Shown here in pieces: positions 8,294 to 36,181 of a DNA stretch of 45,178 bases. Origin of the DNA: Clostridia bacterium (GTDB lineage: Bacteria; Bacillota; Clostridia; Christensenellales; CAG-138); the NCBI GenBank assembly GCA_030533005.1, contig JAUNJX010000013.1, positions 1-45,178 on the forward strand, in the 5' to 3' direction. The notes beneath the pieces are model-generated. The model saw only the letters and a program-made list of their open reading frames with translations, searched no databases and was not told the DNA's origin. A program made the position numbers and the translations under genes. Every line of letters begins with the position of its first letter. Position 1 is the first letter of the stretch.

Positions 8294-8370
8294 GGGGATG
8301 TAGCCCAGCTGGTTAGAGCGCCTCGTTCACATCGAGGAGGTCACAGGTTCGAGCCCTGTTATCCCCACCA
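8294..8370 (+). tRNA. tRNA-Val (anticodon CAC)
   Basis: This 77-nt tRNA has its CCA end encoded. The acceptor arm pairs GGGGATG with TATCCCC. The anticodon arm CCTCG-TTCACAT-CGAGG presents CAC, which reads GTG valine codons. The T arm is ACAGG-TTCGAGC-CCTGT. The D stem has a C-A mismatch at its third pair (GCCC against GAGC), where most such tRNAs have a T-A pair. The terminator that follows is immediate, so this is a single-tRNA transcript. Confidence 0.96.
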
Positions 8371-8372
8371 AT

Positions 8373-8400
8373 AAAAAAGCACCCGTAGGGGTGTTTTTTT
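8373..8400 (+). terminator. Terminator of the tRNA-Val transcript
   Basis: AAAAAAGCACCC, a short GTAG-type loop, then GGGTGTTTTTTT: a CACCC/GGGTG core flanked by A and T tracts, starting 2 nt after the tRNA CCA. The symmetry makes it usable in both directions. Confidence 0.9.
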
Positions 8401-8452
8401 ATTGGTGGGGTATTTAGATTGGAAGGGCTCGAAGCCCCGGCAGCTTTGCTGC

Positions 8453-28143: not shown

Positions 28144-29094
28144 ATGCGATATGATATCGTGGCGATGGGCGAGCTGCTGATCGACTTTACGGAAGCGGGC
28201 TTTTCACCCGCAAAGCAGAGGTTGTTTGAACAAAATCCGGGCGGTGCGGTTGCAAACGTTGCCTGTGGTGCTGCACGGCTGGGGCTGCACACCGCCTTTA
28301 TCGGCAAGGTCGGCAACGACATGCACGGCCGCTATCTTAGGGATGTGCTGCAACAGGCGAACGTGAATACGGACGGGCTGCTTCTTTCCGACGAGGTGTT
28401 TACCACCTTGGCGTTCGTGTCGCTGTCCCCCACGGGGGAGCGCGAATTTTCTTTCGCGCGAAAGCCGGGTGCGGATACCTGTCTGTACGCGGAGGAGCTT
28501 TTGGACGCGCAGCTTACAAATTGCGCCATTTTCCATGTGGGGTCGCTTTCCATGACGGACGAGCCGGTGCGAAGCGCTACCCTGTATGCCGTGCAAAGGG
28601 CGAAGGCGGCGGGGGCGGTTATTTCCTATGATCCCAATTACCGTGCGCCGCTGTGGAAAAGCGTGGAAGAAGCGAAGACGCAGATGCGCGCCTTGCTGCC
28701 TTATGCGGATCTTGTCAAGCTGTCGGATGAGGAAACCGAGCTTTTGACGGATGAAACGCAGCCGGAAGCCGCGCTGGATCGTCTGCTGGCGGCGGGCGCG
28801 AAATGCGCCGTCGTGACGCTGGGAAAGCGCGGCGCGATGCTGGGTTTTGGCGGCGCGCGCACGCATTTCCCCACCATACCCGGCTTGACGGTGATGGATA
28901 CAACGGGCGCGGGGGACGCGTTTTGGTCTGCGTTTTTAAGCCGCGTTGTAAAGGGCGGGCTGCTGAGTGGCCTGAGCGAGGAAAGCGCTGCTCGCTATGT
29001 GCGTTTTGCAAACGCCGCCGCGGGGTACTGCGTCGGCAGGCGCGGCGCGATCCCTTCCATGCCTACCGAGGCGGAGGTGCAAAGCTTGCTTTGA
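28144..29094 (+). CDS. PfkB family carbohydrate kinase (second), fructokinase-like
   Basis: This 316-residue kinase of the ribokinase fold resembles fructokinases. It has the N-terminal substrate motif NPGGAVANVACGAARLG and the C-terminal motif DTTGAGDAFWSAFLSR. It begins at ATG 28144 after a G-rich ribosome site; the upstream frame to 28114 has no support. It follows the aldolase after a terminator, so it has its own promoter somewhere in 28041-28143. It is distinct in sequence from the first PfkB protein, suggesting a different substrate. In context it may prime a ketohexose for cleavage by the aldolase. Confidence 0.9.
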   Translation: MRYDIVAMGELLIDFTEAGFSPAKQRLFEQNPGGAVANVACGAARLGLHTAFIGKVGNDMHGRYLRDVLQQANVNTDGLLLSDEVFTTLAFVSLSPTGEREFSFARKPGADTCLYAEELLDAQLTNCAIFHVGSLSMTDEPVRSATLYAVQRAKAAGAVISYDPNYRAPLWKSVEEAKTQMRALLPYADLVKLSDEETELLTDETQPEAALDRLLAAGAKCAVVTLGKRGAMLGFGGARTHFPTIPGLTVMDTTGAGDAFWSAFLSRVVKGGLLSGLSEESAARYVRFANAAAGYCVGRRGAIPSMPTEAEVQSLL

Positions 29095-32278: not shown

Positions 32279-34471
32279 ATGGAAGAAATACGGGGCGAGA
32301 TCAAACGGATCATCTATCGGAATGAGGAAAACGGCTTTACCGTGATGGAGCTTGTGGACGGCGACGGCGACGAGATCACGGCGGTAGGGTCTTTGCCGCT
32401 GTGCAGCGTGGGCGAGCGGGTGGAGCTTAGCGGCACATGGACGGCGCACAAGACCTATGGAAGACAGTTCAAGGCGGAGGGCAGCAAGACGCTTGCGCCG
32501 GCTACCCTGCACGCCATCGTCAACTATCTTGGCGGGGGGCTTATCAAGGGCGTGGGGGAGAGCACCGCGCGCGCCATCGTGCAAACCTTTGGGATGGATA
32601 CGTTGACCATAATGGAAGAAACGCCGGAGCGACTGACGGAGGTGCCGGGTATAGGCCGCATGCGCGCGCAGACGATTGCGGATTCGTACGCTGTGCAAAA
32701 GGACATGCGGGACATCATGATGGCGCTGCAGGAATACGGCGTCACCGTTACGCAGGCCATCAAGCTTTATAAGATATACGGGCCGCTTTGCCTTGGCAAG
32801 ATACGGGAGAATCCCTATTGCCTGATCGCGGATGTGGAGAGCATCGGCTTCAAGACGGCGGATAAAATCGCGGCTGCGGCGGGGATTGAGCACGATTCCT
32901 CCTTCCGCCTGCATGCGGGCGTGGTGTATACGCTGCAATGGGCTTCCAGAGAGGGGCACACCTGCTTGCCGCGCCAAAAGCTGTTGGAGGTCGCGCAAGG
33001 GTTGCTCGAAACGGAGCTGCTGCCTGTCGAGCGGGCGGTGGACCAGATGATCCTCAATAAAGAACTCGAATATAAGCTCGTGGATGGGACGGACATGGTG
33101 TTTTTGCCCCTGTTTGCCTATTTGGAGCAAGATTGCGCGCAGCGCCTGCTGCGCTTTGCGCAGATGCCGGAGACGCTCATGCTTGGCCTGCCCGCGCAGA
33201 TACAGTATCTGGAAAAGGAGCTTAACATAGAGCTTGCCAAGCAGCAGCGGGAGGCTGTGCTGCTCGCCATGCGAAGCGGCGTGCTGGTGATCACGGGCGG
33301 GCCGGGCACGGGAAAGACGACCATATTGCAATTCATCATCAAGCTGGCGGACAGGCTGGGGCTGACATGCGAGCTTTGTGCGCCAACGGGACGTGCCGCC
33401 AAGCGCATGAGCGAGGCGACGGGGTGCGAAGCGCGCACCATCCACCGGCTGCTTGAATACGGCTACAATAACGGCAGCGGCTTTCAGAAGAACGAGGAGG
33501 ATCCTGTACTGGCGGATTTTTTGATTGCGGATGAGATGAGCATGGTGGATGTGCCGCTTATGCACGCGTTTTTGAAGGCCGCGGCGCACGGGACGCGGCT
33601 CATCCTTGTGGGGGACGCCGACCAGCTTCCCTCCGTGGGGCCGGGCAATGTGCTAAGGGATATCATCGCAAGCGGGCGCGTGCCCGTGGTGCGGCTAACG
33701 GAGATATACAGGCAGAGCGAGCGCAGCACCATCGTGCTGAACGCGCATGCCGTCAACGCGGGCAAAGGCGTGGATCTATCCAATAAACAGGATTTCGGCT
33801 TTGAGCAGCTCAATGATACGGACGCGGTGATCGCGCGCCTGATTGCCCTTTACAGCGGGCGTACCAATCGTCTTGACACGCGCGATCCGCTCAAGGATGT
33901 GCAGATACTTTCCCCCATGAAGAAGGGGGCTTTGGGGGTCTATAACCTCAACGCCCGCTTGCAGGCGGCGCTCAACCCGCCGCAGAGAGGGAAGCTTGAG
34001 CGCCAGTTTGGCGATACCTGCTTCCGCGAGGGCGACAAGGTCATGCAGATCAAAAACGACTACCGCCTGGGCTGGACGCGGCGGCAGGGCAAGGTGATCG
34101 AACAGGGTGAGGGCGTCTATAACGGCGACCTTGGCACCATCATGAAGATCGATACGGCGGAGCAGACCATATGCGTGCTTTTTGACGACGCGCGGGAGGC
34201 GCTCTACGAATACACGATGCTGGAGGAATTGGAGCTTGCCTACTGCATCTCCATCCATAAAAGCCAGGGAAGCGAGTTTCCCGTGGTGATGCTGCCGCTT
34301 GCGGGCGGTCCGCCCATGCTGATGACGCGCAACCTTCTTTATACCGCCATCACGCGCGCGCGGCGGCAGGTGATGATCATAGGCAACGAACAAAGCGTGC
34401 TGCGCATGGTGCAAAACGCGCAGGTGCGCGCCCGCTACAGCGCGCTCAAGGCGTTCTTGGAGCAAGGATGA
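32279..34471 (+). CDS. recD2: SF1B DNA helicase RecD2
   Basis: This 730-residue helicase is of RecD2 type, present in many Firmicutes that lack RecBCD. The N-terminus (about 1-300) contains an OB-like domain and a helix-hairpin-helix segment (VPGIGRMRAQTIADSY). The helicase core has Walker A GGPGTGKTT, DEMSMVD (motif II), a VRLTEIYRQSE motif and a late SIHKSQGSEFP motif. It unwinds DNA 5'->3' and acts in replication and repair. Its mRNA appears leaderless. It overlaps comF by 4 nt (ATGA), so the two are translationally coupled. Confidence 0.95.
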   Translation: MEEIRGEIKRIIYRNEENGFTVMELVDGDGDEITAVGSLPLCSVGERVELSGTWTAHKTYGRQFKAEGSKTLAPATLHAIVNYLGGGLIKGVGESTARAIVQTFGMDTLTIMEETPERLTEVPGIGRMRAQTIADSYAVQKDMRDIMMALQEYGVTVTQAIKLYKIYGPLCLGKIRENPYCLIADVESIGFKTADKIAAAAGIEHDSSFRLHAGVVYTLQWASREGHTCLPRQKLLEVAQGLLETELLPVERAVDQMILNKELEYKLVDGTDMVFLPLFAYLEQDCAQRLLRFAQMPETLMLGLPAQIQYLEKELNIELAKQQREAVLLAMRSGVLVITGGPGTGKTTILQFIIKLADRLGLTCELCAPTGRAAKRMSEATGCEARTIHRLLEYGYNNGSGFQKNEEDPVLADFLIADEMSMVDVPLMHAFLKAAAHGTRLILVGDADQLPSVGPGNVLRDIIASGRVPVVRLTEIYRQSERSTIVLNAHAVNAGKGVDLSNKQDFGFEQLNDTDAVIARLIALYSGRTNRLDTRDPLKDVQILSPMKKGALGVYNLNARLQAALNPPQRGKLERQFGDTCFREGDKVMQIKNDYRLGWTRRQGKVIEQGEGVYNGDLGTIMKIDTAEQTICVLFDDAREALYEYTMLEELELAYCISIHKSQGSEFPVVMLPLAGGPPMLMTRNLLYTAITRARRQVMIIGNEQSVLRMVQNAQVRARYSALKAFLEQG

Positions 34472-35124
34472 CGCGCGTTTTTGAAGCCCTGCTCGATCTG
34501 CTCTATCCGCGCGGCTGCGTTTGCACGCTTTGCGGGCGGGAGGCGATCACACACGGGGAGGTTTGCGACGCTTGCGCGCCCGCTGTCCGTCCCTGTACGG
34601 AAATCGCGCCGCCGCAAGGAACCGTTGGCTTTCGTGCGGGGCTATGCTATACCCCGCCTGTGCGCGGTGCGCTGCATCGCTTTAAATACGGGCGGCAGAT
34701 CTATCTTGCGGATTTTTTCGCGGCGCATATGACGATTCCAGAGGATTGGCGCATCGACGCCATACTGCCCGTGCCGCTGCATCCCAAGCGGCTGCGACGG
34801 CGTGGTTTCAACCAAAGCGAGCTGCTATGCGGCCGCTTGGGTATGCGATATGCTATTCCGGTGAGAACGGATATCCTTTGCCGCGTGCGGCAGACGCCCA
34901 CACAGACCGCGCTTGGCGTGGAGGAACGCAAACAAAATGTGCAGGGCGCGTTCGCGGCGAAGGGCTGTGAAGGGCTCCACCTGCTGCTGATTGACGACGT
35001 TTGCACTACGGGCAGCACGCTTTCCGCCTGCGCGGAGGCGCTTACAAAGGCAGGCGCTGCGAGCGTCTATGCGATGACGGCGATCCGCCGGGAAAGACGG
35101 GCTGACCGGATCGATATGGAATAG
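34468..35124 (+). CDS. comF: ComF family protein (phosphoribosyltransferase-like)
   Basis: This 218-residue protein has an N-terminal four-cysteine zinc segment (CVCTLCGRE and GEVCDACAP) and a C-terminal phosphoribosyltransferase domain with the PRPP motif LLIDDVCTTGSTLSACAEAL. ComF proteins are needed for DNA uptake in Bacillus and Haemophilus and couple to single-stranded DNA handling. The start codon overlaps the recD2 stop. The next gene downstream is spoIIID, whose leader holds a hairpin that would lie at the end of any recD2-comF read-through transcript. Confidence 0.94.
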   Translation: MTRVFEALLDLLYPRGCVCTLCGREAITHGEVCDACAPAVRPCTEIAPPQGTVGFRAGLCYTPPVRGALHRFKYGRQIYLADFFAAHMTIPEDWRIDAILPVPLHPKRLRRRGFNQSELLCGRLGMRYAIPVRTDILCRVRQTPTQTALGVEERKQNVQGAFAAKGCEGLHLLLIDDVCTTGSTLSACAEALTKAGAASVYAMTAIRRERRADRIDME

Positions 35125-35130
35125 ATACGG

Positions 35131-35160
35131 CACATTTTTACGCCCCTTCGGACATACATT
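35131..35160 (+). promoter_or_regulatory. Putative sigma-E promoter of spoIIID
   Basis: CATACATT at 35153-35160 is an exact match to the sigma-E -10 consensus (CATACAnT). An AT-rich -35 candidate, CACATTT, is at 35131-35137 with a 15-nt spacer. In Bacillus spoIIID is a sigma-E gene. The start would fall at about 35166-35168. Confidence 0.65.
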
Positions 35161-35186
35161 GTTACAAAGCATGTTCGAAAGGGGCG
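35141..35186 (+). promoter_or_regulatory. Hairpin that can sequester the spoIIID ribosome site
   Basis: CGCCCCTTCGGACAT (35141-35155) pairs with ATGTTCGAAAGGGGCG (35171-35186): 15 bp with one bulged A and one G-U, loop of 15 nt. The right arm contains the AAAGGGGC ribosome site of spoIIID (ATG 35190). A transcript started at the sigma-E promoter (~35167) lacks the left arm, so only read-through from recD2-comF would form the stem. No U tract follows, so it is not a good terminator. Confidence 0.7.
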
Positions 35187-35189
35187 TTT

Positions 35190-35438
35190 ATGTATACACA
35201 TATCGAGGAACGCGTGATGGACGTGGCGTGGTATATCGTGGAGAAGGAAGCGACGGTGCGGGCGGCGGCCAAAACCTTTGGCGTAAGTAAATCCACCGTG
35301 CACAAGGATATGACCCAGCGGCTGTTGGCGCTGGATGCGAATCTTGCCAAGCAGGTACAGCGGATACTGCTCAAAAACAAGGCGGAGCGGCATATCCGCG
35401 GCGGGCAGGCGACCCGGCGGAAGTATAGGGGCGAATAG
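35190..35438 (+). CDS. spoIIID: Sporulation transcription factor SpoIIID
   Basis: This 82-residue protein matches SpoIIID in length and pattern. An N-terminal helical segment (MYTHIEERVMDVAWYIVE) is followed by a helix-turn-helix (TVRAAAKTFGVSKSTVHKDM) and a basic C-terminus (KNKAERHIRGGQATRRKYRG). It is a DNA-binding regulator of the mother-cell line of gene expression that switches the sigma-E regulon towards sigma-K genes. It starts at ATG 35190 with an AAAGGGGC site buried in a hairpin on longer transcripts. Its location after comF rather than by spoIID differs from Bacillus. Confidence 0.95.
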   Translation: MYTHIEERVMDVAWYIVEKEATVRAAAKTFGVSKSTVHKDMTQRLLALDANLAKQVQRILLKNKAERHIRGGQATRRKYRGE

Positions 35439-35441
35439 CGC

Positions 35442-35476
35442 TTGCGGGTAAAGGGCGCATCGCGTATACTAAGGCC
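35442..35476 (+). promoter_or_regulatory. Promoter abutting the tcdA start codon
   Basis: TTGCGG (35442-35447), an exact 17-nt spacer and TATACT (35465-35470); the ATG is at 35477, 6 nt later. There is no usable ribosome site (AAGG lies only 2 nt from the ATG). This predicts a leaderless mRNA, with the same -10-to-ATG spacing as recD2. Confidence 0.65.
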
Positions 35477-36181
35477 ATGGAAGAAAACAGCGGACAATTT
35501 GCAAGAACGGCGCGGCTCTTGGGCGCAGACGCGGTAGGGCGGTTACAAAAGAGCTGTGTGGCCGTATTCGGCTTGGGCGGCGTGGGCAGCTTTGCGGCAG
35601 AAGCATTGGCGCGCGCGGGCGTGGGTCGCCTGATTTTGGTGGACTGCGATACGGTGAGCGAAAGCAACCTCAATCGGCAGCTAATCGCGCTGCACTCCAC
35701 GCTGGGGCTTGCGAAGGCCTCCGTTATGGCCGCGCGCGTGCTGGACATCCATCCCGCCGCCGTGGTGACGCCCTATGTGCTGCGCTACGGCTCGGATACG
35801 GAAGCGGCGGTCGATCTTTCCGGCTGCGATTATATCATAGACGCGGTGGATTCTGTCACTGCGAAGCTCATGCTTGTGGAACGCGCCAAGCGGGAGGGCA
35901 TTCCCATCATCTGCTGCATGGGCACGGGAAACAAGCTGGACGCCGCCGCCTTTCGCGTGACGGATATTGCAAAGACCGACGTCTGCCCGCTGGCACGGGT
36001 GATGCGGCGCGAGCTGAAAGCGCGCAATATCACGGACGTCAAGGTGGTTTATTCGACGGAGCCGCCTACGACGCCCGAGGGGGGCGGAAGACTTCCCGCA
36101 AGCGTTCCCTTTGTCCCGCCCGTTGCCGGGATGCTGCTCGCGGGCGAGGCGATCAAGCACATTGCGGGCTTGAAAAAATAA
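35477..36181 (+). CDS. tcdA: tRNA threonylcarbamoyladenosine dehydratase-like (TcdA/CsdL)
   Basis: This 234-residue E1-like ATP-dependent enzyme has the Rossmann loop VFGLGGVGSFAAEALARAG, the DCDTVSESNLNRQ segment with the conserved Asp and Arg, and a later IIDAVDSVTAK. TcdA forms the cyclic form of threonylcarbamoyladenosine in tRNA position 37. Other E1-like sulfur-transfer enzymes (MoeB, ThiF) are related, but the length and motifs favour TcdA. The mRNA appears leaderless. It converges with the next gene, with 8 nt between the stops. Confidence 0.85.
   Translation: MEENSGQFARTARLLGADAVGRLQKSCVAVFGLGGVGSFAAEALARAGVGRLILVDCDTVSESNLNRQLIALHSTLGLAKASVMAARVLDIHPAAVVTPYVLRYGSDTEAAVDLSGCDYIIDAVDSVTAKLMLVERAKREGIPIICCMGTGNKLDAAAFRVTDIAKTDVCPLARVMRRELKARNITDVKVVYSTEPPTTPEGGGRLPASVPFVPPVAGMLLAGEAIKHIAGLKK

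Follow-up and report, generated by a model that had tools for sequence, protein, structure and literature searches.

For several genes, hiding of the ribosome site on RNA arriving from elsewhere has been described or proposed. In fold-back inhibition of IS10, external read-through transposase RNA masks the ribosome site, and RNA started at the promoter of the element itself leaves it open; IS10 differs from the case considered here in being a mobile element. At T4 gene e (lysozyme) and in I-TevI leaders, long RNAs from upstream promoters fold a stem over the ribosome site, whereas late-promoter RNA lacks the 5′ strand and is well translated (PMC3014915, PMC2988022). The long gene e RNAs are reported to yield about 100-fold less lysozyme (PMC3014915). 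In Bacillus subtilis, a hairpin of 20 or more pairs, which RNA started at the sigG promoter cannot make, was proposed to block translation of sigG (spoIIIG) RNA that reads through from the spoIIG promoter (PMC5942855, citing Masuda 1988 and Sun 1991). Finally, at B. subtilis spoIIID itself, usd, a sequence upstream of spoIIID and downstream of the sigma-E promoter, is needed for spoIIID translation (PMC4474612).

The clostridial spoIIID leader analysed here resembles each of these in part. As at T4 gene e, the Shine-Dalgarno (SD) sequence lies in the 3′ arm of a stem that is stable on long RNA; the T4 systems differ in using a phage late promoter, in serving lysis and homing genes, and in having an effect proven by experiment, where that at spoIIID is a prediction. 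As proposed at sigG, a sporulation regulator would carry a promoter-dependent SD hairpin; however, sigG encodes a forespore sigma factor and follows a sporulation operon, whereas spoIIID encodes a mother-cell regulator, lies behind various genes, and has a stem that recurs across families and is linked to the orientation of the neighbouring gene. The usd case concerns the same gene and likewise a leader-based control of translation, but the promoter predicted here is enclosed by the stem. Mechanisms of this kind are already known from T4 and, as a proposal, from sigG; what the present case adds is a probable occurrence at spoIIID, in many families of Clostridia, and the link to neighbour orientation. 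Among the matches listed by a literature search whose coverage lay mostly outside subscription journals, there was no earlier report of a read-through hairpin at spoIIID.

A hairpin built around the predicted spoIIID promoter

The window, a stretch of 45,178 nucleotides from a Clostridia bacterium, encodes on its + strand, in order, recD2, a comF-like gene, and spoIIID. The recD2 helicase gene (32279..34471, + strand; TIGR01448, 844.7 bits against a cut-off of 500) lies upstream of the comF-like ORF (34468..35124, + strand), whose top NCBIfam models, ComF and GntX, both score below their curated cut-offs. The spoIIID gene (35190..35438, + strand; 82 amino acids) matches TIGR02844 at 119.4 bits (cut-off 111.5). 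All run in the same direction, and 65 bases separate the comF stop (35124) from the spoIIID ATG (35190). The terminator scan, limited to loops of at most 8 bases, lists no terminator in this gap, and recD2 and comF are the presumed source of read-through RNA into spoIIID. An Rfam covariance-model search of positions 34900-35500 gave no matches at E ≤ 1.

RNA folding places two complementary arms within the gap: the left arm ACGCCCCTTCGGACAT (35140..35155, + strand) and the right arm ATGTTCGA(A)AGGGGCGT (35171..35187, + strand). Residues 35140-35155 pair with 35171-35178 and 35180-35187, leaving A35179 bulged and including one G-U pair (35151/35175). The hairpin first predicted is thus present, although with 16 pairs and a bulge instead of 15 pairs; eight of its pairs, A/U-rich or mixed, lie outside the C/G run. 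The right arm includes the spoIIID SD, AAAGGGGC (35178..35185, + strand; computed pairing energy −11.2 kcal/mol), and excludes the ATG. Arms, fold, and SD within the right arm were all found, so the arrangement of hairpin and ribosome site is real. RNA spanning 35138-35190 has a minimum free energy of −24.2 kcal/mol (z −5.2; none of 200 dinucleotide shuffles as good); for the longer stretch 35120-35260, z is −2.5 and 4 of 200 shuffles are equal or better.

The left arm consists of the spacer of a predicted promoter plus the first three bases of its −10 element. The predicted sigma-E −35, CACATTTT (35131..35138, + strand), sits where the −35 appears in stacked leaders (below) and where sequence identity with a congener begins; the predicted −10, CATACATT (35153..35160, + strand), corresponds to CATANNNT, the most frequent form at this place in relatives. 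As originally predicted, the −10 occupies the left arm and the loop, with three bases in the arm and the rest in the loop. Transcription would start at 35166..35168 (+ strand), 6-8 nt past the −10, an offset that is A-rich and conserved in relatives, and RNA started at about 35166 is predicted to omit the left arm. (A usd-like ORF in this leader was ruled out, because the predicted sigma-E leader of about 23 nt leaves no room for one.) The predicted probability that the SD is unpaired is 0.10 in the long RNA versus 0.53 in the sigma-E RNA; for the congener, these values are 0.03 versus 0.51.

This geometry suggests a model, which we regard as probable, in which the spoIIID leader is a read-through insulator around its own promoter: the SD is masked in long RNA, and the sigma-E RNA is exempt. 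Polymerase entering from recD2 and comF would make RNA with both arms; the arms would form the 16-bp hairpin and bury the SD; and little SpoIIID would be translated during growth, or in the wrong compartment. Initiation by sigma-E near 35166, within the hairpin loop, would instead produce RNA with the right arm only and an open SD, allowing SpoIIID to be made in the mother cell once sigma-E is active. In this model the position of the start, the presence of read-through RNA, and the effect on translation are inferred; the step from geometry to lowered translation would hold by analogy with T4 gene e and sigG.

How unusual is such a stem? Raw folding energy is ordinary: the DNA is G+C-rich, and either strand of the 45-kb window has dozens of 53-base segments whose folds match or exceed this one, for which reason this measure of surprise was dropped. 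Stems were scored instead by the strongest duplex that the SD segment can form within the 50 bases preceding it. The spoIIID leader of the window scores −26.3 kcal/mol (z −6.2). The same genome supplied 177 SD-bearing starts of ORFs of at least 100 amino acids (from the window plus 20 other stretches, which sum to 343 kb or some 15% of the genome), with nine at p<0.05, two at p≤0.01, and a lowest z of −5.2. The two at p≤0.01 are sigG and window position 8419, where a stem resembling a terminator precedes an ORF start that is doubtful. The single start of comparable energy (−26.5) is of this terminator-like, doubtful sort. A stem of such strength aimed at the SD is not ordinary in this genome.

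Separately, positions 8340-8419 of the window hold nested inverted repeats that fold strongly and carry seven T in a row (CCCCACCAATAAAAAAGCACCCGTAGGGGTGTTTTTTTATTGGTGGGG), among the strongest folds of the window and probably a terminator.

Leaders in related Clostridia

A survey gathered 239 spoIIID loci. One (L237) without a usable start and 15 duplicate leaders were dropped, leaving 223; five more, with no SD or too little upstream length, were set aside, leaving 218 scored leaders. Genes in these loci were called naively, as longest ORFs. Record titles served to assign loci to Lachnospiraceae and Peptostreptococcaceae, and 29 unrelated named records share a single stratum (class 'otherC').

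Stems on the SD are frequent at spoIIID: 81 of the 218 leaders (37%) at p<0.05 and 50 (23%) at p≤0.01, compared with 26 (9.5%) and 11 (4.0%) of 275 controls, which are other genes of these loci and of the window. When only leaders whose SD reaches −6 kcal/mol are counted, the figures are 77/206 and 47/206 (47 versus 11 controls at p≤0.01: odds ratio 7.1, p 4e-10). The excess is if anything too small, because some of the scoring controls are themselves spoIIQ-like genes. Leaders with p<0.05 and an energy of −12 or lower were called stem-bearing. By this definition 140 of the 218 have no stem, and 78 qualify, drawn from 14 of the 25 numbered families of the order and from all four named groups; in the family of the window, 16 of 37 leaders bear a stem and 21 are stemless. 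The 78 leaders contain 72 distinct right-arm strings, and pairing is kept between arms of unrelated letters (examples are L220, L183, L141, L196, L091, and L099).

The closest comparison is a congener whose SpoIIID is 91% identical. Its leader is the same from about 35132 onward, its upstream DNA is unrelated, and both arms are retained; loss of the arms in this close relative, which would have counted against the original prediction, is not observed. Since the same leader follows other DNA, and not comF, the upstream partner gene is not fixed. In the congener an inverted repeat, AAGGGAGACG...CGTCTCCCTT (L031:2090-2140), lies about 300 bases before spoIIID, past a short ORF; the window has comF there.

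Do the arms pair with each other, and as RNA? RNAalifold found no consensus pairs when 14 leaders of the family were aligned with MAFFT, because left arms slide relative to right arms and so are misaligned; own-versus-swapped pairing and shuffles were adopted for this reason. Overall, right arms pair better with their own left region than with one from another locus (−13.3 versus −10.0 kcal/mol). Within families, the difference is significant in three of six (the family of the window, p 8e-5; Lachnospiraceae, p 0.002; f19, p 0.02) and not significant in f14, f23, or Peptostreptococcaceae. In a search giving G-T and A-C mismatches equal scores, 136 of the 187 such positions (0.73) were G-T, compared with a share of 0.62 for shuffled leaders (p 0.0016, and p 0.009 and 0.010 under two stricter cut-offs; these values are optimistic because the loci are related). 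The excess of G-U over A-C leans toward pairing in the sense RNA.

Promoter-like elements recur as well. Leaders were stacked on their best CATANNNT −10, and on that element alone; a GTCATATT-like −35 then emerges at −22 to −15, 14 nt upstream of the −10, in stem-bearing and stemless leaders alike. This spacing fits the consensus of a sigma-E promoter. A −10 above the cut-off is present in 55 of the 78 stem-bearing leaders and lacking in 23. The match is suggestive and not strict, because the lenient cut-off is also reached by 20% of their shuffles and 104 of the 275 control genes. In 53 of the 55, the predicted start falls between the two arms, with all of the left arm before it and all of the right arm after it, a geometry favoured by the search layout, since the left segment is drawn from upstream of the right one. 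Mean predicted SD openness in the 78 stem-bearing leaders is 0.13 for the long RNA and 0.43 for the sigma-E RNA; in the other 140, these values are 0.35 and 0.50. A gain in openness above 0.3 is found in 39 of the 78 and in 32 of the 140.

Upstream neighbours and alternative readings

If the hairpin serves against read-through, stems are expected where the upstream gene points into spoIIID. Neighbours were classed at 213 loci with at least 500 bases upstream, five of them without a gene. Stems occur at 41/75 loci with a co-directional neighbour and no terminator, at 20/67 with a co-directional neighbour plus terminator, and at 13/66 with a gene on the opposite strand. The contrast of 41/75 with 13/66 is significant (Fisher, p 2.5e-5; family-stratified p 0.0026, odds ratio 4.2). 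It holds under five stem definitions (family-stratified p 0.0006 to 0.017); with one locus per genus and Peptostreptococcaceae left out (26/54 exposed versus 9/42 opposite, p 0.010); on removal of any one of six groups; and at three other gene-length cut-offs (34-37 of 62-69 versus 9-10 of 51-56; within-family permutation p 0.003-0.007), a stricter gene-call test that leaves out 41-55 of the 223 loci. The locus of the window belongs to the exposed class; the congener, without comF upstream, falls in the opposite class, yet has kept the arms. Upstream of stem-bearing spoIIID genes, ComF is found in four members of the window's family; elsewhere, six upstream products were tried, giving HD-domain, ACT-domain, class II aldolase-like, and aminotransferase-like proteins, while the remaining two matched nothing above the gathering score.

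Peptostreptococcaceae loci (L034, L037, L039, L044-L067, and others) have a strong terminator-like hairpin and T-run before spoIIID. In those with this upstream hairpin, the SD stem is mostly weak or absent.

The interpretation offered in the original prediction is accordingly supported in part, from four sides: the predicted sigma-E-type promoter, the arm geometry, the recurrence with different letters, and the exposure link. It does not stand as a new kind of mechanism. Counting against it are the 140 stemless leaders, the three groups without a significant swap test, the arms kept by the congener despite the absence of comF, the lenient −10 cut-off, the lack of RNAalifold pairs, an SD that is predicted to be no more than about half open even in the sigma-E RNA, and the sigG locus described below, where nearby read-through is not evident.

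The alternative that survives best, though we think it unlikely, is that the hairpin is mainly an intrinsic terminator for read-through polymerase, which the sigma-E RNA, without the left arm, would pass. In this layout, the U-run sits between the SD and the start codon, and read-through RNA stops before spoIIID; termination and SD masking could also act together. At least five of the 8 bases past the stem are U in 26 of the 78 stem-bearing leaders versus 8.4% of the 275 controls, whose tails were counted after the SD core, a place not exactly equivalent. The share of T in the last 8 bases is 0.42 in stem-bearing leaders, 0.25 in stemless ones, and 0.30 in controls, and some right arms are near-textbook terminators: GGGAGGTTTTTTT-ATG (L141) and GGAGGTTTTT-ATG (L171). 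The stem in the window is G+C-rich, as in an intrinsic terminator. However, two thirds of the stem-bearing leaders have no U-rich tail; the tail in the window, UUAUGUAU, has five U of eight but is interrupted; and the terminator scan omits the window hairpin, though it allows loops only up to 8. Some of the U beside the stem could also reflect end pairing with upstream A.

Chance, or a side effect of C-rich promoter spacers complementing G-rich SDs, is very improbable as the main explanation. Swapped pairs do also pair, at a mean of −10.0 kcal/mol, with C-rich spacers adjoining G-rich SDs, and 63% of leaders have no stem at p<0.05. But composition is kept in the shuffles, and still there is an excess over controls, a gap between own and swapped partners, and the exposure link; in the window, moreover, pairing continues for eight A/U-rich or mixed pairs past the C/G run. 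The chance reading is refuted in part.

Equally improbable is the reading in which the dyad serves a dimeric regulator, or SpoIIID itself, as a DNA operator overlapping the −10, with RNA pairing incidental: a palindrome across a −10 is a common operator layout, and the inner part AAGCTTTACAAAGCTT is itself palindromic in several family members (L003, L143), but the retention of pairing through 72 right-arm strings among 78 leaders disfavours a fixed operator, the G-U lean speaks for RNA, and a sporulation operator does not predict a link to upstream-gene orientation.

Similar leaders at other sporulation genes

In the genome of the window, the sigG leader (L244:8700-8863; C67, about 28700-28863) contains GACGCACCCTTCGG, which can pair with CGGAGGGGGTC across the SD. 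This hairpin surrounds a possible sigma-F/G −10, a design like that proposed for B. subtilis sigG. The gene matches NF006071 at 428.6 bits (cut-off 372) and TIGR02850 at 426.4 bits, below the cut-off of 457. Upstream of it lie two tRNA-Ser genes transcribed in the other direction, so it has no evident nearby source of read-through.

A further example comes from M23-peptidase genes upstream of spoIIID in other loci (L033, L045, L069, L080, and L032), which we take to be spoIIQ-like. Their leaders have stems of the type CTCCATGTATAttgtt...aacaataATATATGGAGG, which extend over the SD and hold a sigma-F-like promoter between their arms. Among 26 M23-gene leaders, 12 score at p<0.05 and 7 at p≤0.01; the Pfam M23 match is above the cut-off for L033 and below it for L045.

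These cases raise a broader hypothesis, to which we give somewhat less than even weight: that promoter-inside-hairpin leaders are a general insulator of spore formers for compartment- or stage-critical genes (spoIIID, sigG, and some clostridial spoIIQ-like M23 genes). At spoIIID, such leaders may have been kept or re-formed many times, being present where read-through exposes the gene, scarcer behind a terminator or an opposite-strand neighbour, and partly doubling as terminators that act on read-through RNA only. Because SpoIIID redirects mother-cell transcription, leaky expression of its gene in growing cells or in forespores would carry a high cost.

If the model is correct, a single leader would serve both as promoter and as barrier to leaked RNA, without a regulator protein, and its promoter-in-hairpin layout would be a signature that annotators could recognise. 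The comparison across families also makes it possible to ask whether RNA insulators evolve at genes whose silence is essential once a neighbouring gene exposes them to read-through.
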